Made by a program: the position numbers and the translations under genes. DNA of 64,000 bases from Monosiga brevicollis MX1 (lineage: Eukaryota; Opisthokonta; Choanoflagellata; Craspedida; Salpingoecidae), in NCBI RefSeq assembly GCF_000002865.3, contig NW_001865043.1:292760-356759 (forward strand), written 5' to 3'. Shown piece by piece: positions 2,001 to 30,698 of this stretch. The notes beneath the pieces were generated by a model that was not told where the DNA came from, made no database searches, and was given only the letters and a program-made list of their open reading frames with translations. Numbering within the stretch: position 1 is the stretch's first letter; every line of letters begins with the position of its first letter.

Positions 2001-5000
2001 ATGATGATGTGGCTCCTCCTTCTCCTCCTCGCGGCCATCAGCTCTGGCGGGAGCAGCAGCAGTCTACCTATGCCACCGCTCCGCTACAACCTCCATCTGA
2101 GTGACCAGCAATCTCGCTCTCAACTCGACGCCGAGGTATGGATTGCTGCAGACACACCTCGTTCTTTGATGTACTCCTCAAGCAGTCGGAAAGCATTCTT
2201 TCAGACCTTTTCCAATGTGAACTGCCTTGTTTGTTGCTTTTCCTGTATGGGCACTCGCCTCTCATCCAGGCCCCCTCTTTGTTTCTGCGTGTCCCCCTCC
2301 CCCCTTCCTCACTCAGCTCGTGGTGGGCGCAACGGTCGAGGACCCCACCCATTTTGCTGCCCAGCTGCACGGCGTCTCTTTTCAACTCAATGGTGCCCCG
2401 CGTCATGTTGAAGCATGTCTCACAATTCCCTTTGAATTTGATTTGAGTAATGGCACCGCTGGAGACCTCATCAGGGTTGTTGACGATGATTCAGCACTTT
2501 GCCTTCAAGTCAAGCGCGGTACTGCTTTGCTCCTTCCCTTTTTTTTTTGACTCATCGACCTTTGGCCCTCGCTACACATCATGTACGGTAGCTCGTTACT
2601 TAAACTCATGCCACCGTGATCTTTCTGCGTGCCCTTTTTGTTTCACCCCATAATAGCCATCGTACACGCGTTTGAGACGCATGTAGCCAACCCTGGGACC
2701 CCAACAGCCGAGGCGCTCAACGTCACCTGCTCGGCCCCTCGCTGCCAAGGCTATGTGTACGATGGCCAGGCCCTCGAGGCAGCCGGGCACGGACCCGACC
2801 CACACTCATCCACTTCAGTACCCACGGCCCCTACAATCAGCTTGCGCCGCCGACGGGTTGATGAGCGTGACCCCGACAGTAAACTCGCGCGTGGTGACCG
2901 CCCTCCCATGGCCACCCACATCGACGAGGCCGTGCATGACTGCACTCCAGAGGCCCTTTTGCCTCACCGCGTGCGTCAAAGCAGTTCATTTGAGCTCAAC
3001 CGTGTTGATGCCGAGCAGTTTGTCTCCTATGATCAAACGCACATGGGGGCAGACGTGCATGGCCATCGCCAACATCAAGCCATGCTGCGTCTTGACCTTC
3101 TGCCCGTCAATCCAATGCTGCCAGTTCCCTCAATGGATTGTACCACGCTGCACTGTGTGGCTGCCCCGATCGAGCACGACAGCACACAGGCTCTGCAGCA
3201 CCACCGGGACAAGATGGCCGGGGACTGTTCACTCAATGCTCTGTATGAGCAGTTGGCCCAGCTGCAGGCAGCGCAGAGCGCCGCTGATGATGACAACCAC
3301 GCCGAGGTGGCACGCCTGGCTGCTCATTTTGACAAAAATATTAGTAGTGCCAGCTGTCTCCGCAACTTGGCTGCTCTCCTCACCACTCTCTTGGCCCAGA
3401 ATGCGGACGACGCCGTGGCTCAGCATGGTTTGATGTACCTGGCTGCCCATGACGGCGGCCAGCACTACGCCTACGCTCTCTATCAACAATACCCCTCTGG
3501 CCCCAGTATGCGAGCCCTTTTTTTTCTGCCCAGCCATGACGATGTCCTTGTCGAGCATGTGCGTGGTGTCGTCAACGATCCTGCTCAGCCCACCGAGGTC
3601 CGACAGGCAGCCATCCACGTGCGTCAGCGTAGCGTTTTTACCAGCGACAACAGCACCCGCCTCCTCGAGCTCTTGGTTGATGCGGAGTTGCATCTGGACA
3701 ACACCTCGACCGACTGTGATTGCCCAATCGGCCGCAACCTGACCTCTCACTACCTTCACGTTCTCGGTTCGCTGCGTCATCCATCGTGGCATGACCGCAT
3801 TCATGTCACCTTGGACCAGGCCTTGCGCCACCCCTGTCCCAACACCACCCTGGACGCTCTGTCCGCCATCAGCCGCCTAGCCTCCAACCACAGCGCTGAG
3901 CATTTACTCGATGCTGCGCGCGAGCATGATAATCAAGCGCTGCGCATGTTGGCGTACGACGAACTTGCCCGCCTTTTGCGCCGCCTTGGCGCAACAACCA
4001 CTGAGCCATCCCTTGTCGCCCTTGACTCGGCTTGGACGGCCCGCACCCAGCCCGTCGTCCATCGCCTGCTTGATCACTGCCACGATCTATTGCCACGCTT
4101 TGCCGACAACTTTGACCTGATTGACGATGTCTTTGCCTGCTTGGGCACCGCGTCCCAAGCCACCCGCCCTCACCCACAGCTTCGTACTCGGCTGCTTGCA
4201 GCCCACACCACTTACGTTGCTCACCTCGAGCAGCATGACCGTCGACGCCGTGCTGCCGGCGCCGAGTCCTTTTTGTCCGAAGAAGTGTTGCAGCGCGCCA
4301 ATATCTCGACCGCCCACCTGCCGCTCAGCCACCTCCGGCGCCGCGCTGCTGGTGAATCGCCCATTACCGGCATCACGTTGGTAGATGAGGAGTTTGGCTC
4401 CCGACAACAGAAGCGCAATATCCTTGGTATCGATGTTCTCAACGTGTTTCTACACCAAGAGACAGCATCCTATGCTGCTATCCGTGTCGGTACCCAGGGC
4501 GTTCACGCTGTTCTGCATGCTGGTATCGACTACCGCGCTGGTGCTAATGTATACTCGGGCAGCACCGATCTCGTCTACGCCGTGGCCATGCTCCAATTTG
4601 GATACTCTCTCAAGATTGATGCGGCTCTGGATGCTCTTTCCCAGGGCACTCGTATCGTTGAGGGTGTGGCCAAGAGTGTTCTCTCTATTGCCAAATCCCT
4701 GGGCCTGCGCCTGTATGAGTTTTTGGAGCCATACATGAGCTTCGTCCGCGATATGATCGATTACGTTAGCAAGCAGAACATTCTCCTTCATGCCACCGCG
4801 GGCTTGAAGGCCGCCCTCGAGCCCCTCGATGACATGACAGACGACTTGATGGATTTGGCCGCTAGTGCCATCGAGCAAAATGCACGACCTTTGCTTGTAG
4901 AAGCCAATGATACTTTGACCCAGCTCAAGGTCTATACGGCCGAGGCCAGGGGGCGTTCCTCCTCGTTGTTTACCCTTGTAGAAGAGCTCATTCAACCGGA

Positions 5001-8000
5001 CGGTGAGTTGTCCACGCTCAGCAATCAAACCGGAGTGATGGGCGACATTGGCCAAGTGTTGACCGTTGCGGCCAGCGCGCTCAGCAACGTGCATGAGGGC
5101 TTTGATACTGCCGCCAATTTGGTCTACGTGATTGGCAAGTTTATGGATGGCATGCGACAACAGCGCGCAGCAAAAGCTCAAGTTGCCAGCGCCAACGCTA
5201 GTCGGCGCCGCCGAAGCCAAGGTAACGGCACAGAGGTCGCCGTCAATGGCACTGGTGGCCAAGACCTCGAGGCATTGGCTGGTGAGGTGGATACGGTACG
5301 CGCCTCGTTGGATGCGCAGGCTCGCGATCCCCTGCCTGAGGATGCCCTGGAGGCCCTGACACAGGGACTCGAGGCCATTCAAGCTGCCCTCACCGTGAAC
5401 AACTCCGCCTGTCTGACCCCGATCACCCGACCTGCATACGTGCAAAACCCCTGCAATGTGGACGGCGCCTTTGGCGTGAGCACCGACTTCAGCGATTCGC
5501 TCCTCGTCGCGCCTTTCAATTTTGTGCTGTACCAAGAGTCGTGCAACAAGACCGACCCTAGCGCGTGTACGGACACGGACGACTACATTGTGCTCATGGC
5601 AGTAGGTAGCACCGTCACGGTGCATCTCTTTGGAGCGGTGACGGACATTGCCGACGGCAGCCTTGTGCCGTTGGGCGCCACGTTTGCGCGCATTGTGGGC
5701 TTGGATAGCTGTGCTAATGCTGTGGCTTATTTCAAGACAATCCGCGGGAGCCTGGATCTTGACGAGATTGCACCTGTTCTGCCCACGCGTCTGCGCCGCA
5801 CGGACAAATGTGGTTCGGGCATCTGGAAATCACGCCGCTGCTGCAACGCCCAAGGAGATGTTTACCTGCTCAACGGCATGGACATGATTACCGCTCCAGG
5901 CGAAGATATCGTAGCCCCGTGTGACGGCAAGATGGTGCGCAGCGTCCGCCCCGACGAAACGAGTACGGCAGCTTGGAATGTGGGCATGTTAATTAAGTGC
6001 TCTAGTCCCTTTAGTGGCTTTATGAAGCTGGCCTACGTGGCACCGTTGCTCAATGCTGGTGACAGCTTTTTTCAAGGCAGCGTCATTGGTCAAGCACGCG
6101 ACGTGCGCTCCAAATGCGCACGCACCATGCTCAATCATGTGTACACGGAGGTTTTCAGTGGGCCCTCGGCGCTCGACCGTTATCGCATCGATCCTGCAAT
6201 GGCCTTGTGTGCCGAGCCGACAGCCATTTCTTTGGGCGGAGAAGACACGCCCCTGTATGACCCCGATGCCCCGTGCAGTGCTCTTCAAGGTACTTGCCAG
6301 GACACCAGCAGCGCCTGCGGTGGACCCTACGTGAGCCTTTTGTGTGCCGGGCGGGTTTCGCGTCAGTGCTGTGTTCCCCAAGACAGTCCTTGTCAGGATG
6401 CCGGAGGTGTTTGCCAAGGCATTACAAAGGACTGCGACGGTACCTTTTCACCTGGCAAATGCGCGGGATCGACCAGTCGCCAATGTTGCATGCCCCGGGT
6501 TGATCCGGTGATCCCAGATGATCCCGTGAGTTTGATCGACGTTCTGGTCTCTGATCTCAAGCCCGCCTCCTTTGACACGGACAAGATCCCCGTTTCTCCA
6601 GCATCCTTGGCCGACTACATTTATCGTTGTCAAATCAGCGATGTGGACATGATGGCCCTGCTTTTGGCGCTTGTTGAGGATAACAATGGCTTTGGAAATG
6701 TACTGGAGACCTGGCTCGTCAATGATGTCACAACCCGCTTGTCAGTTGGAGCTGGGCCGATGGACGTTGTAACAAGTGACTTTCACCTGACTGGCACCCG
6801 GCGCAGTACTGTGCTGCGCCGCCACGCAGAGCTGACGCGTGGCTTGGACATTCGCAACTGCTTGCGCCTTGATGGCGAGTGCATTGCGACGACGCCGAGC
6901 TTTGCGGACGCTCTTTGCGGTGCCCAGCAGTCAGCCTGTGTTGCACCTGGACTACCCGCCACCACCACGACCGAGGCGCCAACCACGGCCGGCGGACCAG
7001 TAGTCCGCGACTGGGATGCAGATATCGAATTTACGGGATTTGGCCTGGGACGACCCAAGATTCCTTTGGAGACGGTCAAGCTAAAACCTGCATGCCGTCG
7101 TCGTCGTGATGAGTGGCCGTGTACGGTCAAGGGCATTGCCGCCGAATTTTCCGTTGATGTACCGGTCAAGCTGGAAACAAACATCACCTGCACAAGCACG
7201 TGTACATCCGGTGGTGCTAATTGCGCCCCTATTTCGTATGACCTGCCTTTTACTTTGGAAGTAGTGATCCGCGGTGATATCTCCAAGGTGTATGGCATTA
7301 AATGGTTGGTCAAGAAGCTGGGCATTTTAGCTATTTCCTCTCTAGTGACCGGCGGTACTGCGTCAGTGTTTGTCTCTGGTGCCATTTGGACTGCTGAGGC
7401 GGCCCTGATTATCGCTGACATTTATCTCTACGTAAAGGGGATGATTAGCTTTGTCCAGAGCGTTGTCAAGTCGGCCGTCATCAGCTATTCCAACACAAAT
7501 ATATGCGAGCGCTTTGAATCGCGTCGCCCCACCATCAAGTTGAGCCTCAAATACGATGACTTGGTGCACAGCGTCATCACGCGCAGCGAGCCCATCAAGT
7601 CACTGATGTTCGAGCTAGATATTTCCGACAGCGTTGAGCCGGCACCGTCCGACTCGGGCTCACGCCGCCGCCGAACGGCAGATGATCTTGATGACGAGTT
7701 GGACGATGGCATCCCCAAGTGCTTGTGTGATGGTGATTGGAATGATGAGAGTTCATGCCGGGCGCTTGGTGAGGCACTTGGCGTCGAGACTAGTTGTGTC
7801 GACGCAGTTTTGGTTGCTGCGCCGCGCCGCGCCACCGAAATTACCTATGGCCGTCCTGACCTGCGGCCCGTCATTCATCAGGCGTGTGGAGCAGTGACTC
7901 GTCTGGATGGATGGCTTCAGGGAAGTGGGGAAACGGTTGCCAATGTCAACAACTTGCGCACCGTCGCTAATTTTGTCAACTCCACCATGGGTGAGTCCAC

Positions 8001-11000
8001 AGACGAGATGATGTATGCGCTCTCTGCTCTACATGACATTCTACAAGACACCACACTAGGCAACGGCATCAACGTGATGGCCCATGCTGGTCTCGATGCG
8101 CTGGGTCATCTGCGCACTGCCATCGTGTTTGCGAACACAACCCTCTACCGTGTCCGAGACCGGGTCATTGGCGGCTTGATGGCCCCCGACCTGATTGCTG
8201 ACGTGACCGACTTGTATGCCACTCTCTCTGCCCCACTGCGCGAGCTGCGCTCGCGTCTGCGAACCTTCTTGAGTAGCAGCTTTCAAACTCTTAATACTAC
8301 CATGCATTCCGCTGCAACACGATTGCGTGGCTTCGTGGCCAACATGGCCGATCGCGTTTTCGATCCAGAGTCCATTGAAGAGTTTAGCGCAGAGGTGGCC
8401 GAGGTTGTGGCCCCCATCCGCGAGTTTCTCGACCCCGTCTATGGTCACATCAAGTCATTTGTGGAACTTTTGCAGGAGATTGTGAGCATGGGCAGTGACG
8501 ACCTGGTGGTTATTCGAAAACTCAGCGATCTTTTGGACGATGTCAATGACGTCATGTTTTACTCCGACCTTGTGATGAACTCAATGCAGTATGCATCCAA
8601 TGCTTCGACGCTAAGCAATGTTATTATGGCATTTGCCGAGCGCATTGAGAACAAAGCACAGGATGCGATCAACTACTATCTCGATCAAGGCATGGACCTG
8701 GCTCTGGATGGTCTCAACACCGTGTTAGATGCCATGGATACGGCCTATCTGCCAGACCTGGAGGACGTAGGCGGCATTGTTGCTGACTTTAACAATACAC
8801 TGCAACGTGTGATTGGCCATTACATTGGTTTTGCAGAGCGGCCTCTGGCCAAGGTTCTCGACTATGCCGACGACGCCGAGCTGGTCCTTGTGACTCTCAT
8901 CACTCTGACCACAAAGTGGGATAAATTTGATGCAGCCACCAATCGGGCGCTACAAAGCACGGGCGTCTTGCCGATGGGCCCTGTTGCAGATTTGGCTGAT
9001 GTTCTTGCTTACTATGATGAAGACATGATGGCCAAGGTGCAGACCATGAGGGATCTAGCCTCACGCTTGGGCACAACCTGCGACAGTTTGCTCTTGCAAT
9101 ATGAAGCTGTGGAGGCAGACCTCTTTGAACCCTGCTCGGCCAGTGCCATTTGTCCTCGCGACCAGTTCCTGCAGGTCGCTGCGGATATGGATGAACTAGC
9201 AACTCTGTTTACCGACAATCTGGTGGGACTCAATGACACCTTGGCCACGACAAACAACGGCACTCTTGACTCGCTCTTGAATGACACGGCCACCTCACTC
9301 AATGCCAGTACAGCTGCAGACAGCTCGCATGACCTGGATGCTGCCTATGACACGTTTCAGGGCGAGCTCAACACGCTTGAGGCTTTTGATACACAAAATC
9401 AACTTGCTGTGCATAATGACCGCCGTCGCCGCGCAGCTTGTGGCTGTGCTTATAGCTCGTGGCAAAACTCATACTCAGGCGCGGCCCGTGAGTTTACCGT
9501 CGGCTATTGCTTCAACAATTGCGAATGTCGCTGCGGCGCCTGTGATATGGCTGAGCAGGTGTATAATGAGTTTTTGCCGAGTGCTCCGTGGAACAGGGCG
9601 CCCATGTGTCCTGATCGCGTGGATAGCAGCGCAGCGAACAATCCTCTCTGGTTGCCCCTGCTGCGCAACACTGGGCTGTATGCCGCGGAATTTGGGCAAG
9701 ACACGTATCGCCTCGAGTCAACCAACTATGCTTCACACTTGCATCAAACGTTTTGCGTGTACGACTCAGCCTTTCGCCTCGTCCAAACGCTGCCACACGC
9801 GGGGACCTTTATGACACACCGTTGCAGCATGCCGTTGCAGCGTGAGTTTGATGACCCCTTCTGCGTCAAGTACGACATTTTGACGCGCAAGCAGTGCGAC
9901 ACGGCTCGCTTCCTTGCGGCTCATCCCATCATGAACGGGCCTCCGCACGCTTGGCAAACAGCATCTTATGTGCTGGCGGTTGGAGTGGCACGCACACCTC
10001 GCGCCGATGGTCAACGCGAGCTAGAAAGCGTATTCTTGATCGAGAATGTGGGTATATTGGGTTATGGCGTCGTATCATGGGATGAGATCAAGCGCGTGCC
10101 TCAAAACGCCAACGCTCGAATCTACAAAATGGCTACCATTCGCCGTGCTTCCACCTTCTCATCCGGTGATGCCATTCTAGCATATCAACCCGCCACACGC
10201 AGCGGTAGTTTGACGCAGTGCTGGGCACCTGCTAACATCGAGTTGGCTACGGTGGACTTTTCGACCCCGAGCGTGCCGTCCCAGCTTGTGATGGCTGTGC
10301 GCCACTATACGACAGCTAGTGCTGGCCGTTCGGCCTTTGAATCTGTTGCATCGGCTCTGCGTAACTCGCCTTACCTTGAGACTTCTTTGAGCCAGATTCG
10401 ACGCTTCCCCCAATCGGCTGCTCCCAATACCCCCTCGGCGCTACTCACGCAAGGTCTCATCCATGGCATCGGGTTTTCTCCTTATCCTATCTCAAACAAG
10501 ACGATGACTTTGAGCTTTGAGACAACTCTGATCGACGTTGATGCCGATCATTTCAATGGCGTGCCTTGGGCACAAGGCTACCCCAGCCCGGCCTCGGTCA
10601 ACTCTGCACTTCAACTCTGCGCCCAGTCAACTTGTGACTCTTGCACCTATCAAGAAAACCAACTCTTGGCCGTGTCTGCGGTCCTCAACAGTCCCGTGTC
10701 TTCGGCCGAGCGTCAATGCTTGCAATATCAGGACGACTGTGAGTGTCGCTGCCAGCTCTTTTTTGGGGTCACACAACCTTTGCTAGAAGCGGAAGCACCG
10801 GCTCCACTCGGCGCGCTGCTGCCCTGCCCTGCTCGTTATGCATCAAACCATGCCGGCTTTACTTCACCTTATGTGGCCGAGGCCATCCGTCACCCAACTC
10901 AGCCTCGGTGTATCCGGTCGTTGGCCAGCTTGAATCGTCGTCAAGCCACTGAGTGCTGCTATGACCCGGCCGGCGCCCTCATCACTACCTCGGTCGACGC

Positions 11001-14000
11001 GGGACGGCTCTTCCGCGAACATCCTACTCAGAGTAACTTGGAGAGCTATTACGTGTCTGACTTGGCACGTTATTTGGCCACTCCAGCCGTGCACATGCCC
11101 ACGTACTTCCCCACTGTAGGTACATCGGCGACTTTTGCGCAGCGCTCCACATCGGGTCAAGTGGTATTGGCTGTTTCCAGTCTTGTTCGCGAGGGCTTCC
11201 TTCAGTACACGCTGGAGCTCTGGACAATGCCGGCAATGCGCTTCTTCCTGTCTTCCACAGACTTGGAAGCGCAAGGCGCTCGTCGCCTGGCATCGGTCGG
11301 GGCGCTGACTGCGCCTGCAGCTTGTGAGCTGCAGACGTGGTTATTCAATGGCAATTGTTACAACCTAACCTCTGTGACCACTTTGAGCGTGCTGACAAAC
11401 ACTCTCGGATCTCGTACCGAAGTCGTCCCTGTCGCCATCTTCGCCTCGCAGGCTGCAGGGCAAGCAGTCTTGGCCAGCGTGCAAACACGACTGACTAGCA
11501 TGGATCTTACGCACATGTTCCCAGAGCAGTTTGCGTCCACACGGGCCCAGGGCGTATCCTATCTCAGTGCCAACGTACTAGCTCGAGCCATCAACGACAC
11601 GGCCGTGGCTGACCTCCAGCTGGATATTCTGCGTACTGGATTATGGCCAGGATGGACTACGCGCACGCCACGCTTGACAGCCGATTTCGGCAGTTGGTGC
11701 GACACGGACAATGGCGAAGTGCTGGCTTCTGATCAGTTCATGTGCAGTGACTCCGATAGCCCCAACGTCATCACCTGCACATCAAGTGACGAAACACGCT
11801 TCTGCGGTTTTAACCGCTTGACACAGTTGGAATTTGAGGTTACGGCATGTCGTCATGAGACAACGGACGCCGATCAGTGCTCTTGTCGGTGCGACCAATG
11901 CGATGCGTTGCTGGGGGGTGGTGAAGTGGCTGCTCGCACGGCGTTTTTGCCCAACTGCCCACCAAGTCTGCAGCGAACGGGCGAGGACGCCGCGGTGCTC
12001 GTTGCACAGGTGCCATGGATGTTTGACCCTGTTCGTACCTTGCCCGATGGCCGCTTTGCTGTGCGCACGACTTCTCGGGTGCAGGAAGAGATGCAGCTAA
12101 CCTGCTACTATGATCAGAATACCCTGGAACTGCTGACGAACTTTGCGACTGGCGGTCGCGTTATGCCGCGTCGTCCAGCTGCCTCTGCCTTTGCTGATCC
12201 CCTTCTGACAACGTGTCCTCTGGACTTAGCAGCTCCATTGCGGCCCCTTGGCGTGCGTCTCCCAGTGCCTGCAGTGCTTCAAGCGCCTGCGTCGCCACGC
12301 GTGCTGTTGGCGTTGGAATTGTTGGCCTCGGGTGAGTTTGCGCTCTCCCTCTACACAGGGGTGGCCCATTCAGCTTTTAGTGTGCTGACTATGGAGGAGC
12401 TTGTTCAGATTGCGCCATCGGCGGATCGTCTCCTGAGCCATACCATCACCGTGACTCGTGTCTGGGATCATGGTGAATTGCCCTGCACTTTGGCAGCCCG
12501 CCTTCCGGACACCCTGACTTACGAAGGTGAAGGATTTGGCTGCACACAGCTTACGCCTGTGAGTGTGCGCCAATTAGTGGCCAATGGTGCTTTTGGACGC
12601 ATCTTCCCTCTTCGGTACTTTGATATCCAGTCCACGGCCCAATCACAGTACAAAAACCTCATTGCTTCGATACTTGCAGACAATCGTGTGGCAGATGCGG
12701 ATCTCAACAATTGGCACACAGCCTTGAGCGAGGAGGCAGCCAGTGCTTTCTTCCTCTTGCACCGCGTGCGAAGTGATCTAGCACCTCAGGCGAGCCTCTA
12801 CAAGCTGGACTACAACAGCCTTCCCGCGACGAACCTCGTTGGCGAAGGTCCACCATCCATGGCTGCTCCGGTCAGCAACTTGTTGTGCCAGCCCACTGAT
12901 CAGGGTGAAGCGCTCGAGTTAACGTCTAATGTAAACGAGCCTAGCCAGTCAATGACATGTGCTGCATTGTCGACCAACCTCGCTGCTGCCTCGCGCCGGC
13001 TACTGGTGGTGGGCCTACCATTTCCGGCCACAGCTGCTACTGTGTTTTCTCTCGAGGGCTGGTCTAAGCCTGTGCCCCCCGTGTTGCTGGAGCAGCTAGT
13101 CGTCTTAACTACGCGCCTGCTGTCGGCTTTACAACGCATTCACGTGGATGCCGCTCTCAACGTCTCAGCTGAAAGCTTCGTTGAGACGGATGACTTGCTG
13201 TATGTGCGCGGCTTGGTTTGCCTACAACGCAATGCGCACGTCAACCATGTGGCAGGTTACTTTGCGCTCGAGAAGAGCGTCTCTCTGCGACGCTCCAACG
13301 CAACCTGCGTCGAGCTGGTTTTGCGGGCAAGTAATGGAACCGATGCTGCGGGCGCGGGCTCAGGCTCATCGGCGCTTGATGATTTGGAGGATAGTTTGGC
13401 CACTGCCAAAGAAGGCACGACGCCTCTCACGTCTTCCTCCACCACTGGCGTGCGTGAGCTTGACAATGTGCTGGATTTTATCCGGCAAGTGTACGAGCAC
13501 GTTGATACGTTTGCCGTTGGCCCCCTGAAAGCCGTCGATGATGCCGTCGGCTCAGCGCTTACAGGCACGCAGAGTGCGCTGGACTTTTGCGATCGCGTTG
13601 GTGACATGCGGCTGTCAGACATCCTGACCGAGTTGCCCATTTTCAAAAGAACCATGGGCCTACTCGCAGACAGTGCTTTGGACAAGGTCGCACCTGTCGT
13701 GGAGCGCGTGGAAGGGGTCCTCGATGACGTGACTGACGCCATCAACGACGCCATCGACCTACTGACACAATCGGGTGTCCGCACCACCTTTGGGCCGCGC
13801 ACACCCTGGAACCTGGTACCGGGCTGCCGCAATGCCACGCTGTGTGCTCGCAAGGAATCGCGCATGACAGCGTTGCAGCGCTTCATTTACCCATCAAAAT
13901 ATCCTTACCTATATGAGAACCGAAACTCGTACAATGGGGACGTGGTCAATTACTATACACAAGCAGGTGGCTATGACAGTTACTCAGTGGTGGGTGTTGC

Positions 14001-20000: not shown

Positions 20001-23000
20001 ACCTCTGTTGCTTACAACAGTTTGCCACTGTTCATCTCGGAATTTGCCTGCGGTGATGCCACGCGTCTCTCCGTCGTGGCTTCATTGACTTCGCGGTACG
20101 GTCAGACGGCAACACTCTCTGCGGTCACCTCGCTGCCGGCTGCTAACAGTCTGCAGCCTGGCGCGATTATCATCGGGTCTGACGCGGCTGCAGGCATCAT
20201 CAACGACAGTGCTGCTTTGCATGTCGTCACCGGCCAAGTGCCAGTATCCTTTGCTGCGTGTCAGTTTGTTAACGGAACTGCCGTGACTGACATCTATTAT
20301 CAAGTTGCTCTCGGCAGCAGCTGTTCTTCAGATGACTTGGCAGCCAGCCTTTTTGTTGAGCAGCCTGGTACCTACCTCTTGCGACCAGCAGGTACCGCCC
20401 TGTCGGAAGCGGGCCCCAACATCAATGCATTTGCATCAGTGACATGCTTTAGCCCCACTGCCAGTGCGAGGTCGTGTTCGGCACACGCCACCTATGTTGT
20501 GCATCCACAACGACCCAATGTCACGATTAGTGTTTCAGGCTCGGCAATCATATCTGGTGCCCAGCCTCAACTCACCGTCTGCTTTGAACAGAGTGGCGGT
20601 GAACGCGGCACTCTGCAAATGATGGCCTGCACGAATCATACGACCTGCTTTGCAACTGATGCTGAAACGGCTGCTGCTGTAGCCGGCGCTCTGGGGGAGA
20701 CGCTGCCAACCGAGGACTGTGTGTCTGTGCGCGTGCACACGGCCACCATGAGCTCAGCCTCCTTTCTACGCATTGTTCTTGAGGTTGAGGACAACTTGGG
20801 CTACAAAAGCTCGGATGAGCTTGATGTAGCCATTGACCTTGTCGCTCCACAGGCCACGGTCGTCGTGCCCGACCATATTGACGCCGGCGACACGACCCTT
20901 GATGTTCAGCTGGAAGACCTGCGTGACGATGCTGCGGGTGTATGTAGCATTCAGGCGGCGGTCTCAACTGGGAGCGAAGACAGCGACACAGCTCTCAATT
21001 GGGTGTCACAGACGGTGACATCGGCCCTGCAATTGACGATGCCAACCAATGCGGCCGTTGTTTTCGCCGTAGTCCAGCTTGTGGACTGCGCCGGCAATGT
21101 GGCTGTGTTGACTTCCAAGGCCGTTCCTGTGGGTACTGATTGGCAACCAATGCTCGGCCCTAACGTCACCTCAGTGGCCATTGCAGCTGCCGTCGAGGTC
21201 CAATCATCGGTGCAAGTTTCCCCAGCCGCCGACTACTGCGAACTGGTGATTGCTGATATCAATGGCGACAACTCGACAGGGGCCGTATATGGCCGCTTCT
21301 ATCCGCAAGAAAGCGGACCTTTTACAGCTCAAGTCGTCCCAACGCGTGTTGTCACTTCTTTGCGCCTGGTGTTATCTTGCCATCTGGATGGCGTCGTACG
21401 TCAGGCCACCACTTCAGTAGTTGTGTCTCGTGATCTCTGGCAGGTGATGCCCACCATTCGCCCGCAATGCGAGGGTGCTGTGCTTAATGACAGTGTATGG
21501 CCGTGTCGCAATTTTGTGTTGGGAGGCCGCGTTGAAACGCATGTGACGTCCGTGTTTTTACTCCAGAACGCCGTGCGCACGGTGCGAGTGCCTGTCAATT
21601 CTAGCGGACATTTTAACTTGCGCGATGAAGCCCTTCCTGAGGATGTGCCGGGCATGAGCACAACATTTGGCATAGAAGCATGCTCGCCTCTTCATTGTGA
21701 GGCCCATGCTCTGGCTGAGGTTGTGCTGCTCTCCCGCAAGCCACTGATGGAGTCCATTCGCGTGTTGGCCGCTCCAGACATGGCTGCTGTCTTGCCGTTT
21801 GACGTGTCCGTGACCTATGCCGCGACAGTTTTGGCGCCCGAATCTCCTGTTGTCGCCATTGAGCTCTGTGTGGGTACAGTCCCCCTGTCAGCCGACAATG
21901 CCGAGGACGGTGATTGTGAGTTGTTGCTGGATGCCGCACCATTAACGGGTACCTTCAACATCTCGTTGGCGGGCGGGCAAACTGTCATATTTCTACGCTG
22001 CATTGCCATAGACGCGCTCGCACGCCGCAGCGAGAGTCTCGTGCACGCCCTTGAATTGGCAGCACCAATCTCTCCACCCGAGGTATCTTTTCAAACTCTG
22101 GAAGCGTGCACAAACAATCGGGTCGGCGCACCTTCCAACGAGCAGCACGTGTCCGAGTGGGCCTGCGTGTACGCAACGGCGGCGGAAACCAGTGCTGTCG
22201 TGCGCCTTGAACTAAGGAGCGAGCCAAGTGGCCTCACATTGTCTCGCTTGGTTGAACCGGGCTTGCATCTTTTGCCCTTGGCAGGAGTACCTGTCACCAC
22301 GATGACCGGGTTTTCTGTCACTTTAACCGCACAGACTGTGTTGAGTGGCCGTGCATCAATGTCGGCAACAGCTGAGCTCAATGTCAGCCTTGAAGTGACG
22401 CCCCTGAGCGACCTGGATGTGCAACTCGTCAACGAGCAACTTGTCCTCACTTGGACAGGCGGACCTGTAGCGCCAGTCATGCGAGTCGTGTCTCGCGCGT
22501 TGGCCCTTGATGCTCGTTTGCTCAATCCCCAAAGCCCGGTCGAGCTAGCTGTGGACTTTGCCAGCGCAGTGCGACGGGTGGACGTGACTCTGGCTGTGAG
22601 CAAAAGCTCACCGGAAGATGCTACTACGGTCAAGTACTCCACTACGGTAACACGCCAAGCCGCGGCCTCGGTGCCCTCTGCGCCTCGACTCTATCTTGTG
22701 GATCAGGGGCAGGGTCGCCAGGTGAACAATGCGGTGGATTTGGGCCAGGCTGTTTTGCAGGCCTTCCCCCGTTCGGCTTGCACCCTGGTACTTTGTGAGT
22801 TGTGCTGGGAAGTTTCAGGCACCGAGCGCGCCTGTCGGGCCTTTAATGGTCAGGCTGACGCGAGTGTATGGTATACTCCTTTCAACGAGACCCTACCAAT
22901 GACCTTTGAGCTGCAGGTGGCCGGGACCGTGACAGATGCTGTGATGGTCGCAGCCGATGTCAGCGATGTACATCGTCAAGCACTGGGTATAACTACGCGG

Positions 23001-26000
23001 GGCGATCTTGCTGCGTTGTCGTGGGACGTACCCACTGCAATCATGGAGGTATGCGAGGTGCAGCTCTGCGAGGACTGTTCTCGCCGTTTGATGGTCGATC
23101 CTGCGGCTGGTTTGTACAATTTGGAAGCCCTTACCAACCTTGCCAGTGTAACGTGCACCCGGGGACCCGACAAATTGGAGATGCAGCGTCCAGTGGTAAC
23201 AGCGCTGACATTGCCCAATATTTCCATCATCGCTTCGCCGCACCTACATATCGTTGGCGACCAGGTCTTCGTGGCCAACGCAAGTGTTGTGCTGCACGTT
23301 GTGTCCTCAGACTATGACGCAGCCATCACCTTTGCACCCTTGGTGGTGGGTGACAGGACCGGGGCCGACTTGGCACCCGTGGCAGTCGACGCACTTGCAG
23401 CCCCCTTTGATTATGCCATTGGTGCCGATGATCTTGGCCTCGGAATCAATGTTGGCATTACTGCACCTGATGGGCAGCGCCTTGAGCTCTTCAACGTTGT
23501 ACCCGCCTTTGCGGGACCCAGCATCGTCATGTCGCGTTGCATTCGACAGAATTCCCACGAGCTCTGGGTGCAGCTGACCACTGAAGATGTGGGCGTGGGC
23601 ACAGACCACGTATTGTTGTGTCCTGGTGGTGATAGCGCGAGTGGCGTGGAGGCTGAAGAGCCCTGCCCCTCACCCTTGCGTTTGGAAGCTGATGCAGCTG
23701 CAGCCGGCCTAGCCGTCAGTTGGACGGACGCAGGCAGCACGCTGCGGGTCTGGGCCGTGGATGCTCTCGGCAATCGGGGTCCCGGGCTAGTTGTTGAAGT
23801 CAGTTCATGGGGCGCTGAGGGACTTGCCACCCCTGCTCTTCATCCCTTATCTGATTGTGCCCCGCTCGGAGTCGCTTGCTACTCGTGGACGGCCTTTGAT
23901 CCGCTCGATCAATACGTGGTGTCTCTCGAGACATCAACCACCGACGCTGGCTCGCTGCCTTCACAGCAGCTTGTGGGCACTTTCCACAGCGTTCGCGAGG
24001 TGCGACTGCGCGAAGCGGACGTTGGTCGTCCTTCTGGCTTAGTCGTGACCTCGGTCAACACAAACCAAACGACACGAGTTGGGCTGCTCTGGCGTGCAAC
24101 TGCAAGTCTTAACCTCACTGTGGCGTTGGTTCCGTGCGAAGAGCCGGATAGCACGCGTGCTGGGTCAGCTGCGGACCTGCTGTTGATCAACTCGACGCAA
24201 TCTGTTCGAGTGGCGGTGTTTGGTCCGCCCACCACTGACTGGGAACAACTGGCTGCGTATGCTCAAGTTGAAATTTGGGACTTGACGGCTGGTGTGCAAC
24301 AAGGCAAGGCCATGAGCCCCATTGTAACGGGAGCTCAAGCATCTACACACCCGGCACACCAGTCTGGCAATGCCACCTGCGTTCCCCCCGATGCTGAAAT
24401 GGAGCTGGGTGCGATGCGCAGTGGCATGTACGTGCCCATTGAGGCAATGCTATTGCACGGGCACACATATGCTGCGCTATTGCGCATCTCTGAGCTTCCT
24501 GTGGCGTGGCCTTCGTTGTTGGTGGACGATGGACGGTTCTGCTTGGCAAGCGCTGCTTTGCATACCGTCATTGACGGCAGCCCAGTGTCCACGTGGTTGG
24601 CCACGCGTAACGTGCAACTCACGGCCGCGCTGAACCGCTGGCCGTGCACCGAGGCTTTCAGCAATACAGAGTGTATCGACGATGACAGCGACAGCAGTGT
24701 GGAAGACTCGTGTAACTTGGACAAGGTTCCAAACGTGGTTCATCCGCTGCCGCTCGCACTGCCAAGTAATGCCGTTTTGGCTGTGGCTCGCAACGACACT
24801 CAAGTCTTGGAAGTGCCCTTGAACTGGCCTGCCTGTGTTGTGGATTCAGCAGCGCCTCAAGTTTTGCAGACGTTGGGACTGCGTCGGTTCCTGCCCACGC
24901 TATCCAAATTTGATGCATACATGCGGTTGCTGAGCGGCCCGGAGTCCGCCGACGTGCTTGTGCTAGAGACCCGCGAAGCATTTGTTATTGTATCACCCCA
25001 AGGCGAACAAGCTGGACTTGTGCTTAAAGCACAGTATGGCAGCCTTTTTGCGTGGGATAGCAACATGCTGGTGCTGGCCGACCCAGCGCGTTCGACGGTC
25101 TCAATTTTCAGCGCCACCGCGTTGCTGGATGGCTCGCCTCAACCGAAGCGGGTGTTCAACCTTACGACAAGCGAGAGGGCTGTTGCTTTGGCAATGAGCA
25201 GTAATGGTCAACTCATAGTGAGCACCGACGCGACTTTGTCGTGCTATGATTTGATGGAGGGCCGTCAGCAGTGGGCGCGCGACTGGAGCAGTGGTGCCGC
25301 CTTCGTGGTGCCCACAACCGGTGCTGGCCGCGGCATGCTTCTTGTTGACGCAGCTGGCATGGTGCGTGTGGTCGCATCGGGTGCCGGGAGCTTGGCAGAC
25401 GGAGGACCTGCAACAGAACCCGAAACCATCGTGCCGACGGGTGGTGCAGAGGTCAGCAGTGCCTGCGCGTTGCCGACAGGAGATGGTTATGTGGTGGCCA
25501 TGGCGGCCGACAGTGTCAGAAATACTTCACTGCCCACGGCTCCTGGCCGCTTATTGCTCGTCGCCAATAATGGCAGCGTGATGATTCAGACGACCATGGC
25601 CTCAGACCTCGACGCTAGCTCACTGCAGTGCTTGGTGCATGGGTCATCATCTGCCTCCCCCGCCTCTTTTATTGCCCTCTCCTCGCTTCCGGGCGCTACC
25701 CCAGGCGGTGTGAGTGTAGTGGCGCTCTTTCAGGCAGACGTGCCCAATGCCATTTTGCACAATATCACGCGCATCTTGCCGGATGGGGATGACATTGATG
25801 CCTATGTCCTGGCTGACCGTGACGTCGCTAACAATGCGCTCACCTCTGTCCTTGGTGCGACGCTGCAAAACAATGCGTTTTATGCAATCGACGTGTCTGA
25901 CGTTGCGGCACCCGCCCTGCGTGCGCATCCATTCTGTCCACCCAACACAAGCTTGATCCTCGAGCCTGCGGCTTATGTGGCGTCTCTGCGCTGTGAACCT

Positions 26001-28118
26001 TGTCCACCTGGCCAATGGTCGCCTGGCGGCTTCCACGCTACTTGCACTGGGCTTCCGGCGTGTGCAGACGTCTCCGATCTGGCCGTGACTGTGGCCGTGC
26101 CGGCCGAGGTGGCATGGGATAGTAACAGCAGCAATGTTGTCTCGATTGTTGCATCAGGAAGCAATCCGCGTGTGAGCCCGGTCCACCTCGCTGTAGGCAC
26201 TTTTAAGTACGAGGTACAACCCCCCAGCGTTGCACAGCTTCTTGATGGCATTAGTTCCGCCGCCAACACGTGCAACAATGAGAGCAGCACCGGTTGCACG
26301 ATGGACGGCACAGTGACAGACGACGAAGTGGCACAGGCCGATCCATACTCGTTTGCTTGTACTTTTTTGGCCCAGCACCAGGCACCCTTGGCATCGATGC
26401 AGATTCGCCTTGACGCCAACAATACCGTTGGCGTGCTTGTGCCGTGGACTGAGGTGGCCACGTCTTCTTCCAACTTTTCCATCGTTCTGGAAGATCCTGT
26501 CCCACAGGGTAGCAATGTGACGTGGACCGTCAGGGTTACGTCCGTGACAGGCGCTACCAGCATGACCACCTCCAGCGGCGTCATTGTCGACACTGAGCCG
26601 CCCCGCATCTCCCTCAATGATGGCCCACCAGACCGTGACTACAACTTTACCACCATCACAGACGCTCTCCTCATTTCCTTGGCTTCTTATTCGGCCGCCA
26701 GTCCACTGTCGGAGCTGGTTGTGAGCGTGGGCACAACGCCTTGTGGTGCGGAGTTGATTCCCCCCACCAGTCTTGGCTCAGGCCGAGCTTTTGGATTTGA
26801 GAATTTGATTTTGGATTCAAACGCCGTCTATTTTGCCTGCGCACAGGCAACAAGCGCGGCTGGTCTTCGCAGCAACTGGACCCTTTCCAACGGCGTTCGT
26901 GTGAAGAGCAGTGCCTCAGGTCAGGATGTTAAGAACCGCACGCTCGAGTTATTGCTACGCCCCAGCAAGTTGAATGAGGGTGCAGCTGAAGCAGAGACAC
27001 TCTTTGACAAGAGCTCTGCTGGCGCAAATGCTTCAGCATCCGGGCCAACCGCCATCGAAGAGCCGGTGGCGGTTGGTTTGACTTTGCCTCAAAACTCTTT
27101 GGGTGACGACATCGAGATGACAACAGCGACCGAACAAAAGGACGGCGGGGAGGTGATTTCTCGGACGTATCTGACCTCTGGATATAGCTTCTCGCTCAAT
27201 TTTGCAAATACCAGCGGTGGCGAGATGGGCGAGCACTATTACTTTCCCAACGGAAGCTACCCCGTCATCACAACCTATCACAATCCGTCCAAGATCCTGG
27301 CCGAGATGCAAGGGCAGGTCGACGAAGATGGCTTGGAGGATTTGATTCCCAAGCTACTGGTCCGTACTGGGCCGAATCCTGAGGATGTCACCCCTGCTGC
27401 GGAAACATGCGCGCCCGCCGACCGTTTCGAAAGCTACAACTTCACCACGGGCATCTTGCGCACGCGCATCTGCCACGCATCGGATTTTATTGTTGTATTT
27501 ACACATGCTCGCATGGACGGCGAATTGTACCTCATGTACAACTTTTTGGCTGGACAGCTGCAGCTGCAACGCAAGCGCGGTGCAGTTGGCGTTTGCAGCG
27601 TGGCCATTGATGTCACATCGCGCGGCTCGGTGTCAACAAGACAAAGCTTTTCGCTCGCTGCGCGCGAGTGGAGCTCGACAGTTCAACTGACGAGTCCGAA
27701 GAGCATCCAACACATTCAAGTACTTGAAACCACTGGTTGCACGCTTGCAAGCTCTACAACCGTCTACGAGCGACCGGCAGCATCATCTTCACCCGCCATT
27801 GACCCGCAGGTGCCATCCTATGTGGCGACAGCTGTGCTAATGGTGCTTCTGGGCCTTTGCGTTCTGGACTGCGCCCTTGCAGCTGGGTTACTGAGGAACA
27901 AAATACGTTGCGGAACTGATGACCATCGCAAATTTATGCTTGGGCGTGCCGCTTTGTTCGTGCTTGTGGCGGCGGAGATTGTGGCGTTGCATGTCACTGG
28001 GTCTGCAAGCTGTCGTTGGTTGGGCTTGTGCATCAGTGCGCTGGCCATGCTTGTCGTGGTTTGTGCCTCTCTGGCCTCAATTACCACACGAGTGGCTGCT
28101 GTGCTATCCGGTCAGTAC

Positions 28119-28150
<32 letters not shown>

Positions 28151-30358
28151 TGTGTGTGTGTGAGAGAGAGAGAGTGTGTGTGTGAGTATGCGTATGTCGT
28201 TCAAATTTAATGTCTGCCTCACTCACAAAGTGTTTGGTATTGCAGCTCTCTGGTTTGGTCTCTTGTTGGGATTGCAGATGGGCGTTGAACCTGACACATT
28301 CGGGGCTGGTCACAATGAAGCGTATGTTATGCCTCTTTTGCCCATGTTTCCGGTTTCACGCTACTTGTGTCGCTCACCTCCTGGCTTCGTTGGGTCGGCC
28401 TTTGACAGGTGTACCGGTCGCTCTCTGGCTGGTGTGCTCCTGACTTTGCTTGCTCCATCTTTGTTGGCTCTGGTTGGCTTCTCGTGGCATTGGAGACAAA
28501 AGAGCACCCGACCTTCAGATCTAAGCCACGAACGCATGCGCTCACAGTCCAAGCTGATGTTGGCTGATATCAACAAGACGACCGTTGGCTTCGTCCTGTT
28601 GTGCTTGTTCTTGGTGCAACAATTGGAGTGGGACATCCGAGCAGAGGCCAAGATTGTGCTTTGCGTTTTGGTCGCTACTTGTGCTCTGCTCATCGCCGTA
28701 TGGCATCGTCGACGTCAGCGCTGGCATCTGGATAGCTCCTCTGCTGAATCTCAAGAGGTACGTCGTCATGTTTTTCTAGTTGCCATCTTAGGGTCAGGGA
28801 CGGGTAGCGTTGATTTTGTTGGGATCTGAATTGGAAGGCTGGAACGGGATTCCATGCTGTTTGAAGGAGAAGGGGCTTTTCGTTTCTGCGTCTCATCATC
28901 CTGTGGCTTGCCTGCAATCATCTGACATGTGTGTTCCTCAGCATGAGCTAGGCCGCCTGCGACGCGGCAACCACGAGACCTTTGAGAATGCTGTGTATGG
29001 CGAGCACGAGGCGGCGCCCCAAACTGCTTGGAATGCCAAGGCCAATGCGCGCACCAATATCTTGAATCCTGTGTTCAATGTTACTGACTTTGAGGAAGAG
29101 CCCACAGACCCATTGGAATCCTACGATAACATGGTATGTCCACATGTTGTCGCGGCAGTGGACGATGCGTGGAGCTCGGTTGCTCATCTGACCTTGTGTA
29201 TTCTTTGATAGCATCGCACGGGTCAATACCTGACCGTTGAGGAAGAGTCATCGGCGGATGAAGAGGAGGAGACAGCAGCGCATGCACGCCCCGCTGTGGA
29301 CTTTGATTATGAAGTGATCGAGGACATTTTGGATCAACGCGACCCCGACTATTTCGACATAGGGCCGGAAGAGGAAGGTGCTGAGAGTCTGCTAGCATCG
29401 GCAACCACCCACCCCTCCTTCCTGCGTCGCACTTCTCCACAGCAAGCGGACATGTGGCTGCGCATGTCCGACCAGACGAGGTGCTTGGTGCGCAGTCTCG
29501 ATGGCAATGGCATCGTATTCTTGAAGAAGCACGGAAAGGTCGTGATGCACTACGACCTGCGTGTGGATGAGAAGGACAATGCGTTTGTTGACGGCATCTC
29601 AATCGGACCTTACTGTGGACTAGCAGCACTGATCGATATGGCTGACTTTGTGGCTGCGGTTTGTACCCTGTTGTCCAGTGCTCTAAACCAGTGATTTCCT
29701 GCTCCGTGCAGGCCCTGATGCGACTTTTTGGCTCATCAACCACGTAATTGCTCTTAGAATCAGCTGGATGAACGCGCGACCACCCTGGCACCGGCTGGCC
29801 CGATGCAGCACCGACCACCCGCAGCTGCTTCTGCAGCTGGTGTGGCTGATACGGACTGGTCTGCGCAGAGCCTGATCTCGCGCTTTGAAACATCCCTACA
29901 GTCATCCCTCTGCCCAACACCCAAGACGGCCGTACGTTCGAACACATGCGCGTCGTTGAATGGGTAAAGTGGAGAGTCTCCGTGCCAACTTCATTTCCTC
30001 ATGATTTTCACTTTGCTTTTTTTTTCTTGTTTCTTTTGTTCTCGGCTTGCCTTGTAGGCTTCTGTTGTGTCAGAATATGAGGAAGCCTTTGGTTTTGGAG
30101 GCGTAGACGAGGCCGAACTTGAGACGGGCTTTGGCTTTGGTCAAGACATTGACGACCGAACCGGTTCAGACACCAACTCTCTGGCCAACACCAGCGTAGT
30201 GGATGCCGACCTTTGGGTTCGTCTCATATTGGGCATGCGATGCTCGCATACAATTCAATTTCAATTTCAGGCTGAAATGCTCACCTTGATGCCGTTGTCT
30301 GCATTGTGTACAACAGGCGGACCTTGATGTGCTTGCGGAAGCGGAACTTGAAAAGTGA
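2001..30358 (+). CDS. Giant multidomain seven-pass membrane receptor with cytoplasmic SH2 domain (about 8,996 aa)
   Basis: Twelve exons: 2001-2135, 2317-2518, 2657-15355, 15465-15599, 15715-15804, 15901-28110, 28246-28757, 28942-29133, 29212-29658, 29764-29931, 30058-30216, 30317-30358. Every junction has GT-AG ends and matching phase, and the exons sum to exactly 8,997 codons including the TGA. The start MMMWLLLLLLAA is a clean signal peptide. Approximate residues: 20-900 vitellogenin/large-lipid-transfer-like; 1163-1297 M23/LECT2-like; 1317-1391 two Cys-rich repeats; 2372-3500 three AMOP-like repeats; 4422-7300 Ig/FN3-like array; 7350-7700 propeller-like; 8395-8650 seven hydrophobic segments; 8792-8876 SH2. 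At least nine multibasic sites suggest furin-type processing. The likely role is a cell-surface or matrix-sensing receptor signalling through phosphotyrosine; this is inference. The first giant exon could be mistaken for a complete gene ending at the in-frame TAA at 15361, but the GTAAGT donor there and the continuing frame argue for one gene. Codon use is uniform throughout. Confidence 0.82.
2059..5390 (+). other. Vitellogenin/large lipid transfer protein-like N-terminal domain
   Basis: The pattern LRYNLHL, then IPFEFDLSNG, a stretch ending LQVKRAIVHAFE and later a long alpha-helical repeat region (LHVLGSLRHPSW, LDALSAISRLASN, RMLAYDELARLL) follows the order of the lipovitellin beta-barrel and helical superhelix. 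In the known family (vitellogenin, MTP, apolipoprotein B) the same order is a PFxF-type motif, a VKRG-type motif and an armadillo-like superhelix. After it, ILGIDVLNVFL and a beta-rich stretch resemble the start of the lipid-binding sheets. Multibasic sites at 2842, 4240, 4333 and 5200 interrupt it. Assignment is by eye. Confidence 0.55.
5806..6200 (+). other. Degenerate M23/LECT2-like domain in the giant protein
   Basis: NGMDMITAPGEDIVAPCDG followed by KMVRSV aligns with the LECT2/M23 segment HxGxD...VYAPxxGxIV. Later come a GDSFFQGSVIGQ turn and HVYTEVF, matching the HxH strand. The first metal-ligand His is replaced by Asn and the second His of HxH by Tyr, while the Asp is kept. The domain is therefore probably not a zinc peptidase and may act in binding, as animal LECT2 does. 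Confidence 0.6.
6262..6495 (+). other. Tandem six-cysteine repeats in the giant protein
   Basis: Two adjacent copies of C-x5-GxC-Q-x6-C-G-x8-C-A-G-x2-S-RQCC. The second copy reads GGVCQGITKDCDG and then KCAGSTSRQCC. Such modules occur in many secreted protist and fungal proteins; their binding partner is unknown to me. Confidence 0.65.
9433..12900 (+). other. Three AMOP-like extracellular repeats in the giant protein
   Basis: Three units of about 370 residues begin near 9433, 10630 and 11850. Each opens with a CxCRC signature (CECRCGAC, CECRCQLF, CSCRCDQC) and a CP doublet. It then has a C(C/Y/V)YD motif followed by a small beta hairpin (ECCYDPAGALITTS, LTCYYDQNTLELL, TFCVYDSAFRLV). The CCYD-x-x-G-x-L element and the preceding CxRS motif are hallmarks of AMOP domains (MUC4, isthmin, sushi-domain proteins). 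Confidence 0.5.
15910..24500 (+). other. Array of Ig/FN3-like beta-sandwich repeats
   Basis: About 25-30 units of roughly 95-110 residues, many ending in a boundary motif such as VDKTPP, VDLTPP, LDPTPP or VDTEPP and carrying a YYVRVRAVN-type or YAAVRCKN-type strand. This is the look of adhesion-type FN3/Ig arrays in very large choanoflagellate and sponge surface proteins. The repeats are strongly diverged from each other. A further unit with the VDTEPP motif lies near 26590. Confidence 0.6.
24700..25900 (+). other. Possible beta-propeller (PQQ/NHL-like) segment
   Basis: Successive short hydrophobic strands with Ser/Asp turns (VLVLETREAFVIVSPQGE, SLFAWDSNMLVLADP, AMSSNGQLIVSTDATLSCYD, WARDWSSGAAFVV) read like consecutive propeller blades. 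A Cys-rich motif (CEPCPPGQWSPGG) follows at about 25996. Confidence 0.35.
27820..28722 (+). other. Seven hydrophobic segments (7TM-like module)
   Basis: Seven segments of about 18-24 residues: VATAVLMVLLGLCVLDCALA, RAALFVLVAAEIVALHVTG, WLGLCISALAMLVVVCASLA, AVLSALWFGLLLGLQMGV, AGVLLTLLAPSLLALVGFSW, TVGFVLLCLFLVQQLEW, and AKIVLCVLVATCALLIAVW. The seventh is followed by HRRRQRW, a cytoplasmic stop-transfer charge. A Cys just before segment 3 and Cys residues in the long loop 4-5 could form the usual GPCR disulfide. With a cleaved signal peptide the seven passes leave the tail in the cytosol. I found no GPS/GAIN cleavage motif. The intron at 28111 falls between segments 3 and 4. Confidence 0.7.
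28119..28186. repeat. (TG)n/(GA)n microsatellite in an intron of the giant gene
   Basis: TG array with an internal GA block, just after the donor of the second giant exon; reading through it gives a meaningless CVCVCV tail. Confidence 0.9.
29410..29664 (+). other. SH2 domain in the cytoplasmic tail of the giant receptor
   Basis: HPSFLRRTSPQQADMWL matches the start of an SH2 domain (helix A). CLVRSLDGNGIVFL is the FLVR strand with the phosphotyrosine-binding Arg kept. KVVMHYDLRVDE is the strand carrying the conserved His, and YCGLAALIDMADF matches the helix-B 'sLxxLixxy' element. The usual first Trp is absent and the C-terminal part is short. It is followed by a low-complexity acidic tail. 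Confidence 0.72.
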
Positions 30359-30698
30359 AGTTTGCGTGATGAAGAAACGCTTGGAAATGGTGTGGTGTTT
30401 TTGAGATGTCATTAAAGTGTAAACCTAATTGTGTTCGGCCCGTTCGTGCGAACGTGACGTTGGCCTTTGAGTTGCGTGTAGCTGGCTGCTGAAGATGTGG
30501 CTTGAGTAAGTGCAGTGCTGTAAGCGTATTTTTCCTTTTGTTATTCTACCAATTGTTTTCTCTTAAGCCAAAAAGTTTATGTGAGATTGTGTTTGTCGGT
30601 TTTGATGGCGAACTGCCGTGTCTAGTTCAATTGATTGATCATTGATTTCAGAACGACCTCTTCATAACAATGGGAAAGCGCATGGAAGGTGGAGGTAT
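30359..30698. other. Convergent 3' flanks
   Basis: AT-richer sequence between the giant gene's stop and the 3' end of the minus-strand carrier gene. It holds only 3' untranslated regions as far as I can see; no ORF or RNA is recognised. Confidence 0.5.

Follow-up and report, generated by a model that had tools for sequence, protein, structure and literature searches.

The window analysed here is a 64,000-nucleotide stretch of the choanoflagellate Monosiga brevicollis MX1 (positions 292760-356759 of contig C52, in a 39.5-Mb genome of 57 contigs). It contains two dominant open frames of 4,247 and 4,087 codons, which most likely belong to one giant gene for a receptor-type protein. When 13 exons are joined across 12 introns, with GT-AG at all 12 junctions, a single chain of 8,967 residues is obtained on the plus strand, open from the ATG at 2001 to the TGA at 30358, its one final stop, and preceded by an in-frame stop at 1818. 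Its two giant exons measure 12,699 and 12,210 nt (Table 1). A previous reading of the same DNA from its letters alone, referred to below as the sequence-only reading, had proposed a single gene of twelve exons and 8,997 codons; the single open chain is retained here, but its exon count and length are not. The difference would be explained if the sequence-only reading had retained intron 7 (28322-28408), which is 87 nt long, lacks an in-frame stop and has a coding-like codon score of +9.2 in frame. This intron is probably real and spliced out because a paralog on contig C56 allows an intron at the corresponding position in the same phase and because the paralog's own intron carries an in-frame stop, and therefore we count 13 exons and 8,967 residues; even so, the intron may be retained. 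Exon 13 is uncertain, and intron 12 may be retained.

The used frame has the top codon score among the six frames in 12 of the 13 exons, the exception being exon 13 (42 nt). The score was trained on exons 3 and 6, so the scores of those two exons are not independent, but outside them the used frame is still the best in 10 of 11 exons, with the reservation that the exon boundaries were selected to keep the frame open and the coding tests are therefore not fully independent. Exons 4 and 5, which would link the giant exons, have a positive codon score in the used frame only. The correct phase at eleven junctions, on which the sequence-only reading relied, is borne out as GT-AG and an open frame at twelve, but in-phase junctions alone are weak evidence because the boundaries were picked to fit and because 254 of 1000 dinucleotide-shuffled gaps also permit some in-phase chain. 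As for the codon score of the link, the best in-phase chain across the gap between the giant exons takes 15537 as the start of exon 4 and scores 22.1, and the chain with exon 4 from 15465 sums to 18.9, compared with a best score of 14.8 among the shuffled gaps, none of which (0/1000) reaches that of the real linking chain. The 5′ edge of exon 4 may lie at 15465 or at 15537. Judged by these statistics, the existence of one real and most likely single giant receptor-type gene is well supported.

Beyond the chain itself, the analysis computed family matches (mostly below cut-off), hydrophobic segments and basic runs. Seven hydrophobic segments are clustered at residues 8395-8614, with hydropathy of 1.75 to 2.55, in agreement with the sequence-only reading, and 79 of the 82 N-glycosylation sequons fall in residues 20-8394, ahead of this cluster. 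The Ig-like array named in the same reading is likewise supported, as an Ig/FN3-like array, by a Big_3_2 match above its cut-off and by the repeat profile of the protein P0003, which gives 75.6 bits for the whole chain and 27.2 bits for the best domain, although similarity to the present protein is how P0003 came to light, so that its profile is not independent support. The AMOP-like repeats of the first giant exon share the landmarks CxCRC, CP and CxYD, real AMOP domains having been compared through the hidden Markov model only, and the three resemble one another: the pair scores of repeat 1 with repeats 2 and 3 were reached by none of 500 shuffles each, and that of repeats 2 and 3 by one of 500. 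Repeat 2 matches the Pfam AMOP model, while repeats 1 and 3 scanned singly gave no AMOP match at E ≤ 10, nor did longer pieces scanned against Pfam. A genome-wide AMOP search (E ≤ 10), in which only one candidate passed the first look, reported 10888-10995 in this gene as its sole place (E 0.068). The AMOP-like call of the sequence-only reading can thus be kept as that of a remote match below cut-off.

At the N-terminus, residues 75-123, across exons 2 and 3, match positions 75-122 of the Pfam profile Vitellogenin_N (PF01347; E 0.0034). The match seems credible because its position fits the profile and because the family had been named beforehand in the sequence-only reading. For the region resembling large lipid transfer proteins (LLTPs), PDB yielded no matching sequence at E ≤ 10, and a six-frame genome search with Vitellogenin_N reported no place, although a search of this kind does not bridge introns and the controls gave no hit either. 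An M23/LECT2-like domain seen by eye at about residues 1165-1300 received no support from Pfam or PDB and was rejected. The same part of the chain contains six RRRR runs, which the sequence-only reading did not mention, all before residue 2,372 and before the AMOP-like repeats; 0.064 such runs would be expected, and none of 2000 shuffles reached six. Two further RxRR sites of the ectodomain are RLRR at residue 1157 and RERR at residue 4189, all ectodomain sites lying before residue 4193, and a ninth RxRR, at residue 8637, is cytoplasmic and not a cleavage candidate. Tetrabasic sites in secreted precursors usually mean convertase processing, and the RRRR runs suggest proprotein cleavage sites. 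Cleavage may split the chain into several fragments, and one gene need not correspond to one mature receptor of 9,000 residues.

Contig C56 (about 1981400-1985313, minus strand) carries a copy of the final portion of the gene, starting at residue 7426. Protein identity between the two falls from 91% (491 aligned residues) to 64% (495) and then to 34% (112), the last covering the fifth to seventh transmembrane segments (TM5-TM7). At the DNA level the identity is 92.7% over positions 24915-26923 of the window, and beyond these only 27186-27490 aligns, at 75%. Introns can be placed in the copy where introns 6, 7 and 8 lie in this gene, and in the same phases (1, 2 and 0), and this agreement supports the exon model of the seven-helix region and makes intron 7 likely. 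Two cysteines are kept in the copy as well, one ahead of TM3 and that of CTGRS ahead of TM5, and the copy's tail has four tyrosines. Within the copy (C56:1982132-1985313, minus strand), the 92.7%-identical 2-kb block adjoins a much more diverged part, which suggests recent gene conversion or duplication. Directly upstream, an open frame on the opposite strand (C56:1985241-1986137, plus strand) looks Ig-like by eye and has no significant similarity to the repeats of this gene (best E 0.23); it may mark an inversion breakpoint. An incomplete duplication could account for the copy, as could disruption by an inversion. For the first giant exon, no second match turned up in the genome at E ≤ 0.001. 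The search of the genome for further copies covered the gene apart from the stretch 15901-19160, in the second giant exon.

The sequence-only reading had ended the chain in an SH2 domain that wired the receptor to phosphotyrosine signalling, a claim that is not maintained here. The genome holds at least 114 SH2 and at least 146 PDZ matches, a wealth in keeping with a choanoflagellate; PDZ domains compared with PDB gave DLG4, InaD-like and Scribble chains, none of them identical. The window contains none of the 114 SH2 places of the genome-wide search, and the SH2-like stretch has no PDB sequence match. The stretch was further compared with 20 of the 114 SH2 domains of the same genome. Its HMMER score of 2.6 bits is exceeded by at least 8 of 2001 controls, and its best pairwise score is matched by 77 of 300 shuffles. 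In hhalign it scores 23.4, against 19.6 for the best of 100 shuffles and 21.5 for the best of 60 other pieces of this protein, with a probability of 20%, and in a forced whole-domain alignment it scores 6.4, the best of 176 windows of the protein and a value reached by 2 of 2000 shuffles. Two registers compete for the FLVR strand, PSFLRRTS and RCLVRSL, of which the latter fits best by eye (QA---L, CLVRS, then MHY). The single-sequence AlphaFold model of the stretch is poor (predicted local distance difference test score, 56.9) and has seven strands and a C-terminal helix, with a strand where the CLVR register needs helix A, while a low-confidence helix (56-66) would suit the FLRR register. With signals this weak and registers in disagreement, a true SH2 fold in the tail is doubtful, and the SH2 wiring, the most striking part of the original finding, is unproven. 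Elsewhere on the contig, at C52:274601-275539 (minus strand), two SH2 matches were observed roughly 17 kb upstream of where the window begins, each with a 540-codon open frame; one of the two holds a TGA.

Table 1. Predicted exons and features of the giant gene, in window coordinates (aa, residue number in the chain)
Feature	Position	Strand	Remarks
Exon 1	2001..2135	+	Start codon, signal-peptide-like start (MMMWLLLLLLAAISSGG; by eye and hydropathy); donor gtatgg; open in frame
Exon 2	2317..2518	+	Vitellogenin/LLTP-like N-terminus begins; top coding score of six frames
Exon 3	2657..15355	+	Giant; LLTP-like region, tetrabasic sites, three AMOP-like repeats; coding score +1077
Exon 4	15465..15599	+	Joins giant exons; alternative start 15537; coding score +6.6
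Exon 5	15715..15804	+	Joins giant exons; coding score +12.3
Exon 6	15901..28110	+	Giant; Ig/FN3-like array into TM4; coding score +1096
Exon 7	28246..28321	+	Remainder of TM4, outer loop 2; flanking introns at same place and phase in paralog
Exon 8	28409..28757	+	CTGRS, TM5 to TM7; hydropathy and paralog
Exon 9	28942..29133	+	Cytoplasmic tail (NAVYGEHE, ESYDNMH); coding score +23.8
Exon 10	29212..29658	+	Acidic, tyrosine-bearing tail; SH2-like stretch (disputed) at about 29410-29658; coding score +40.9
Exon 11	29764..29931	+	Tail; coding score +12.2
Exon 12	30058..30216	+	Tail (SEYEEAFGF); coding score +27.9
Exon 13	30317..30358	+	Last 13 residues and stop; coding score -1.6, not best frame
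RRRR run, aa 176	2845..2856	+	
Putative LLTP superhelix stretch	3127..4299	+	Placed by eye at aa 270-660; sole HEAT_2 match at aa 497-549, E 0.19
RRRR run, aa 641	4240..4251	+	
RRRR run, aa 962	5203..5214	+	
RRRR run, aa 1593	7096..7107	+	
Hydrophobic stretch	7318..7455	+	aa 1667-1712 (46 residues); four overlapping windows of 1.69-1.81
RRRR run, aa 1782	7663..7674	+	
RRRR run, aa 2368	9421..9432	+	
AMOP-like repeat 1	9505..9849	+	aa 2396-2510; resembles repeats 2 and 3; no Pfam match alone
AMOP-like repeat 2	10723..11067	+	aa 2802-2916; Pfam AMOP E 0.0015, 19.1 bits (below cut-off)
AMOP-like repeat 3	11863..12207	+	aa 3182-3296; resembles repeat 2; no Pfam match alone
RERR, aa 4189	14884..14895	+	Possible convertase site between the two halves
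Ig/FN3-like repeats	16197..17093	+	aa 4520-4818; P0003 repeat profile 6.0, 20.4 and 17.4 bits
Big_3_2, bacterial Ig-like domain	20892..21122	+	P0002 residues 1665-1741; E 6.4e-6, 26.8 bits, above cut-off 23.3
Propeller-like stretch, CPPGQW cysteine stretch, two FN3/Ig-like repeats	24915..26930	+	First two by eye; repeats aa 7917-7989 and 8000-8093; paralog-shared part begins here
GAIN/GPS-like stalk with CHASDF (our label)	27177..27509	+	Single motif of its type in the protein; conserved in paralog
TM1 to TM3	27822..28082	+	Hydropathy

As a whole, these features would be best explained by one gene for a secreted and then membrane-anchored proprotein of about 8,967 residues, an explanation that we hold to be just about probable and in which we infer a signal peptide, a topology in the membrane, cleavage, a ligand, signalling and phosphorylation. 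The signal-peptide-like start would direct the chain into the endoplasmic reticulum, the diverged lipid-transfer-like N-terminal part would probably be cut by furin-type convertases at the tetrabasic sites, and the RERR site might divide the membrane half from the N-terminal half that bears the AMOP-like repeats. The membrane half would pass from the Ig/FN3-like array through the GAIN/GPS-like stalk and the seven helices to the intracellular tail, and contact of the ectodomain with a ligand or matrix would be relayed via the stalk and helices. Tyrosines of the tail (YDNM, YEVI, YFDI) might then be phosphorylated by cytosolic tyrosine kinases to recruit SH2 proteins, and the diverged SH2-like stretch may itself bind phosphotyrosine. 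The product is thus best read as a putative adhesion-GPCR-like (G protein-coupled receptor-like) giant receptor, probably convertase-processed and with a phosphotyrosine-type tail.

Several points weigh against this explanation. The gene chain is predicted from sequence statistics. The Vitellogenin_N match reaches 16.5 bits, below the curated cut-off of 24, and the AMOP match (PF03782) of repeat 2 reaches 19.1 bits, under a cut-off of 25; SH2 (PF00017) had no Pfam match in the tail or in two shorter pieces of it at E ≤ 10, so that, of the three families for which the sequence-only reading had suggested a domain search, two gave weak matches and the third none. In the forced alignment, the 20 real SH2 domains score 105.6-150.6, against the 6.4 obtained here. 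No GPCR family (7tm_2), GAIN or GPS model in Pfam matched the spliced transmembrane region at E ≤ 10. The membrane topology is a predicted one because, besides the signal-like start and the seven segments, eight weaker clusters (1.51-2.03) in the presumed ectodomain pass the same hydropathy threshold of 1.5; the most notable of them, residues 1667-1712, is possibly membrane-inserted, for example as a hairpin, or lipid-associated and would complicate the topology. In favour of the explanation, an acidic/hydrophobic context is seen for 3 of 6 tail tyrosines, those of the SH2-like stretch not counted, compared with 22 of 223 elsewhere in the protein, but this rule of context was set after the tail had been seen and the sample of six is small. 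As for the C56 copy, its splice sites were picked by the analyst with this gene in view, no genome-wide SH2 match lies near it, and only five of its seven segments pass a laxer hydropathy threshold of 1.4, TM5 and TM6 failing. Ratios of nonsynonymous to synonymous substitution rates (dN/dS) between the two copies (0.318 over 490 codons, 0.253 over 479, and 0.205 over 428 that overlap the second segment) fit purifying selection, but they come from one pair, and the third segment has a dS of 2.1, near saturation. Outside the genome, the protein searches for relatives turned up P0003 alone, a repeat protein that lacks this architecture; they were limited by candidate length and shared words, and their protist coverage is uncertain, so that absence proves little. 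Finally, the join of exons 5 and 6 as the middle of an FN3/Ig repeat, which looked good by eye, was, contrary to expectation, not favoured by the repeat profile and was rejected as evidence: the spliced version scored 4.4 and 20.9 bits, against 5.5 and 22.0 for exon 6 alone, and equally high values came from upstream pieces that were random (421 of 1000) or shuffled (162 of 1000).

The lack of a GPCR family match and the failing TM5 and TM6 of the paralog might mean that the hydrophobic segments serve as a structural or adhesive anchor rather than as a signal transducer of the GPCR type, all the more so as the GPS-like CHASDF motif lies about 115 residues ahead of TM1, beyond the usual spacing in adhesion GPCRs. 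This seems somewhat unlikely, however, given that seven segments are clustered, that the cysteines before TM3 and TM5 are kept in the paralog, and that a tyrosine tail follows. The eight RRRR and other RxRR sites of the ectodomain, all before residue 4193, would also be compatible with one gene for a convertase-cut polyprotein, the lipid-transfer-like half of which forms an independent secreted particle of the lipoprotein type, functionally unrelated to the receptor half; we regard this as unlikely, since the cleaved parts of such precursors often remain associated, and both the cleavage and the lipid binding are only predicted.

Two separate genes, one for a secreted lipid-transfer/AMOP protein that stops at 15363, the other for an Ig-array seven-helix receptor starting from exon 4 or 5, are a distinctly unlikely alternative. 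The first giant frame does stop at a TAA (15361-15363) immediately by the donor site, exon 4 shares its frame with an ATG at 15443, and the profile test of the exon 5/6 junction is neutral in this respect, but only 79 bases would separate the stop from the start, and the peptide begun at 15443 (MLFECPTGCC) is not signal-peptide-like. The linking exons fit both sides in phase, and their coding score was unmatched in the shuffled gaps. A poly-A site between the giant exons, which the sequence-only reading had named as a sign of two genes, did not appear, neither AATAAA nor ATTAAA being present on the plus strand in 15000-16200. On this strand the whole gene has no AATAAA, the next one downstream lying at 30747, and ATTAAA occurs once within the gene, at 7297, and again at 30411, 53 bases past the stop. 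The first methionine of exon 6 comes 53 residues in and is not signal-peptide-like. Two genes are thus unlikely because of the unmatched linking score, the lack of poly-A signals between the halves and the late methionine of exon 6. Very unlikely, in our estimate, is the idea that a lipoprotein-like particle module and its own seven-helix phosphotyrosine receptor are made in one proprotein and freed by convertase, as a built-in ligand-receptor pair with which a single-celled relative of animals would sense lipid or prey particles.

The setting of the predicted receptor gene is ordinary eukaryotic, because 4 of the 10 neighbouring frames scanned match Pfam families (Myb, TPR39/Iml2, antistasin and ORC5). 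An open frame at 35240-36610 (plus strand) contains three Myb DNA-binding stretches, and one at 58207-59691 (minus strand) contains two stretches of the antistasin type. GA-rich and GT-repeat tracts occur at 700-850, 1165-1200, 1310-1350 and 28120-28162, the last a GT tract inside intron 6, just past the donor site.

The preferred reading, that of a single proprotein with a receptor half, can be set beside several known systems. With large lipid transfer proteins (vitellogenin, apoB, apolipophorin and MTP), it would share the weak, position-matched Vitellogenin_N match and, with apolipophorin and insect vitellogenin, basic cleavage sites; it differs from these proteins in that the match stays below cut-off and in that they are not known as membrane receptors. 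The lipid-transfer-like domain is known mainly from animals. With AMOP proteins such as MUC4 and SUSD2, it would share the AMOP model match of repeat 2, below cut-off, in a set of three AMOP-like repeats, and it differs from them in that no NIDO or VWD match was found in the Pfam scans of this protein. A survey of choanoflagellate GPCRs describes adhesion GPCRs and GPCR-kinase fusions (eLife 2025, PMC12716839), and its main text does not contain the words SH2, vitellogenin or AMOP. The adhesion GPCRs would resemble the predicted protein in a very long ectodomain of adhesive modules and a GPS-like stalk before seven helices, but here no 7tm_2, GAIN or GPS model matches; the GPCR-TK and GPCR-TKL/K receptors would resemble it in seven helices followed by a signalling tail, but they carry a kinase domain, in place of which only tyrosine motifs and the doubtful SH2-like stretch are found here.

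Open-licence literature searches combining choanoflagellates with adhesion GPCR, vitellogenin or lipid transfer, SH2 and AMOP gave no matching description among the matches listed. If transcripts confirm the gene, it would encode a very large seven-helix receptor precursor with an order of modules not seen in the open-licence literature searched, among the matches listed. If the reading is true, it would place a lipid-transfer-like domain on the surface of a protist, and it would suggest a second route, besides the GPCR-kinase fusions, by which a seven-helix receptor might be connected to tyrosine signalling.

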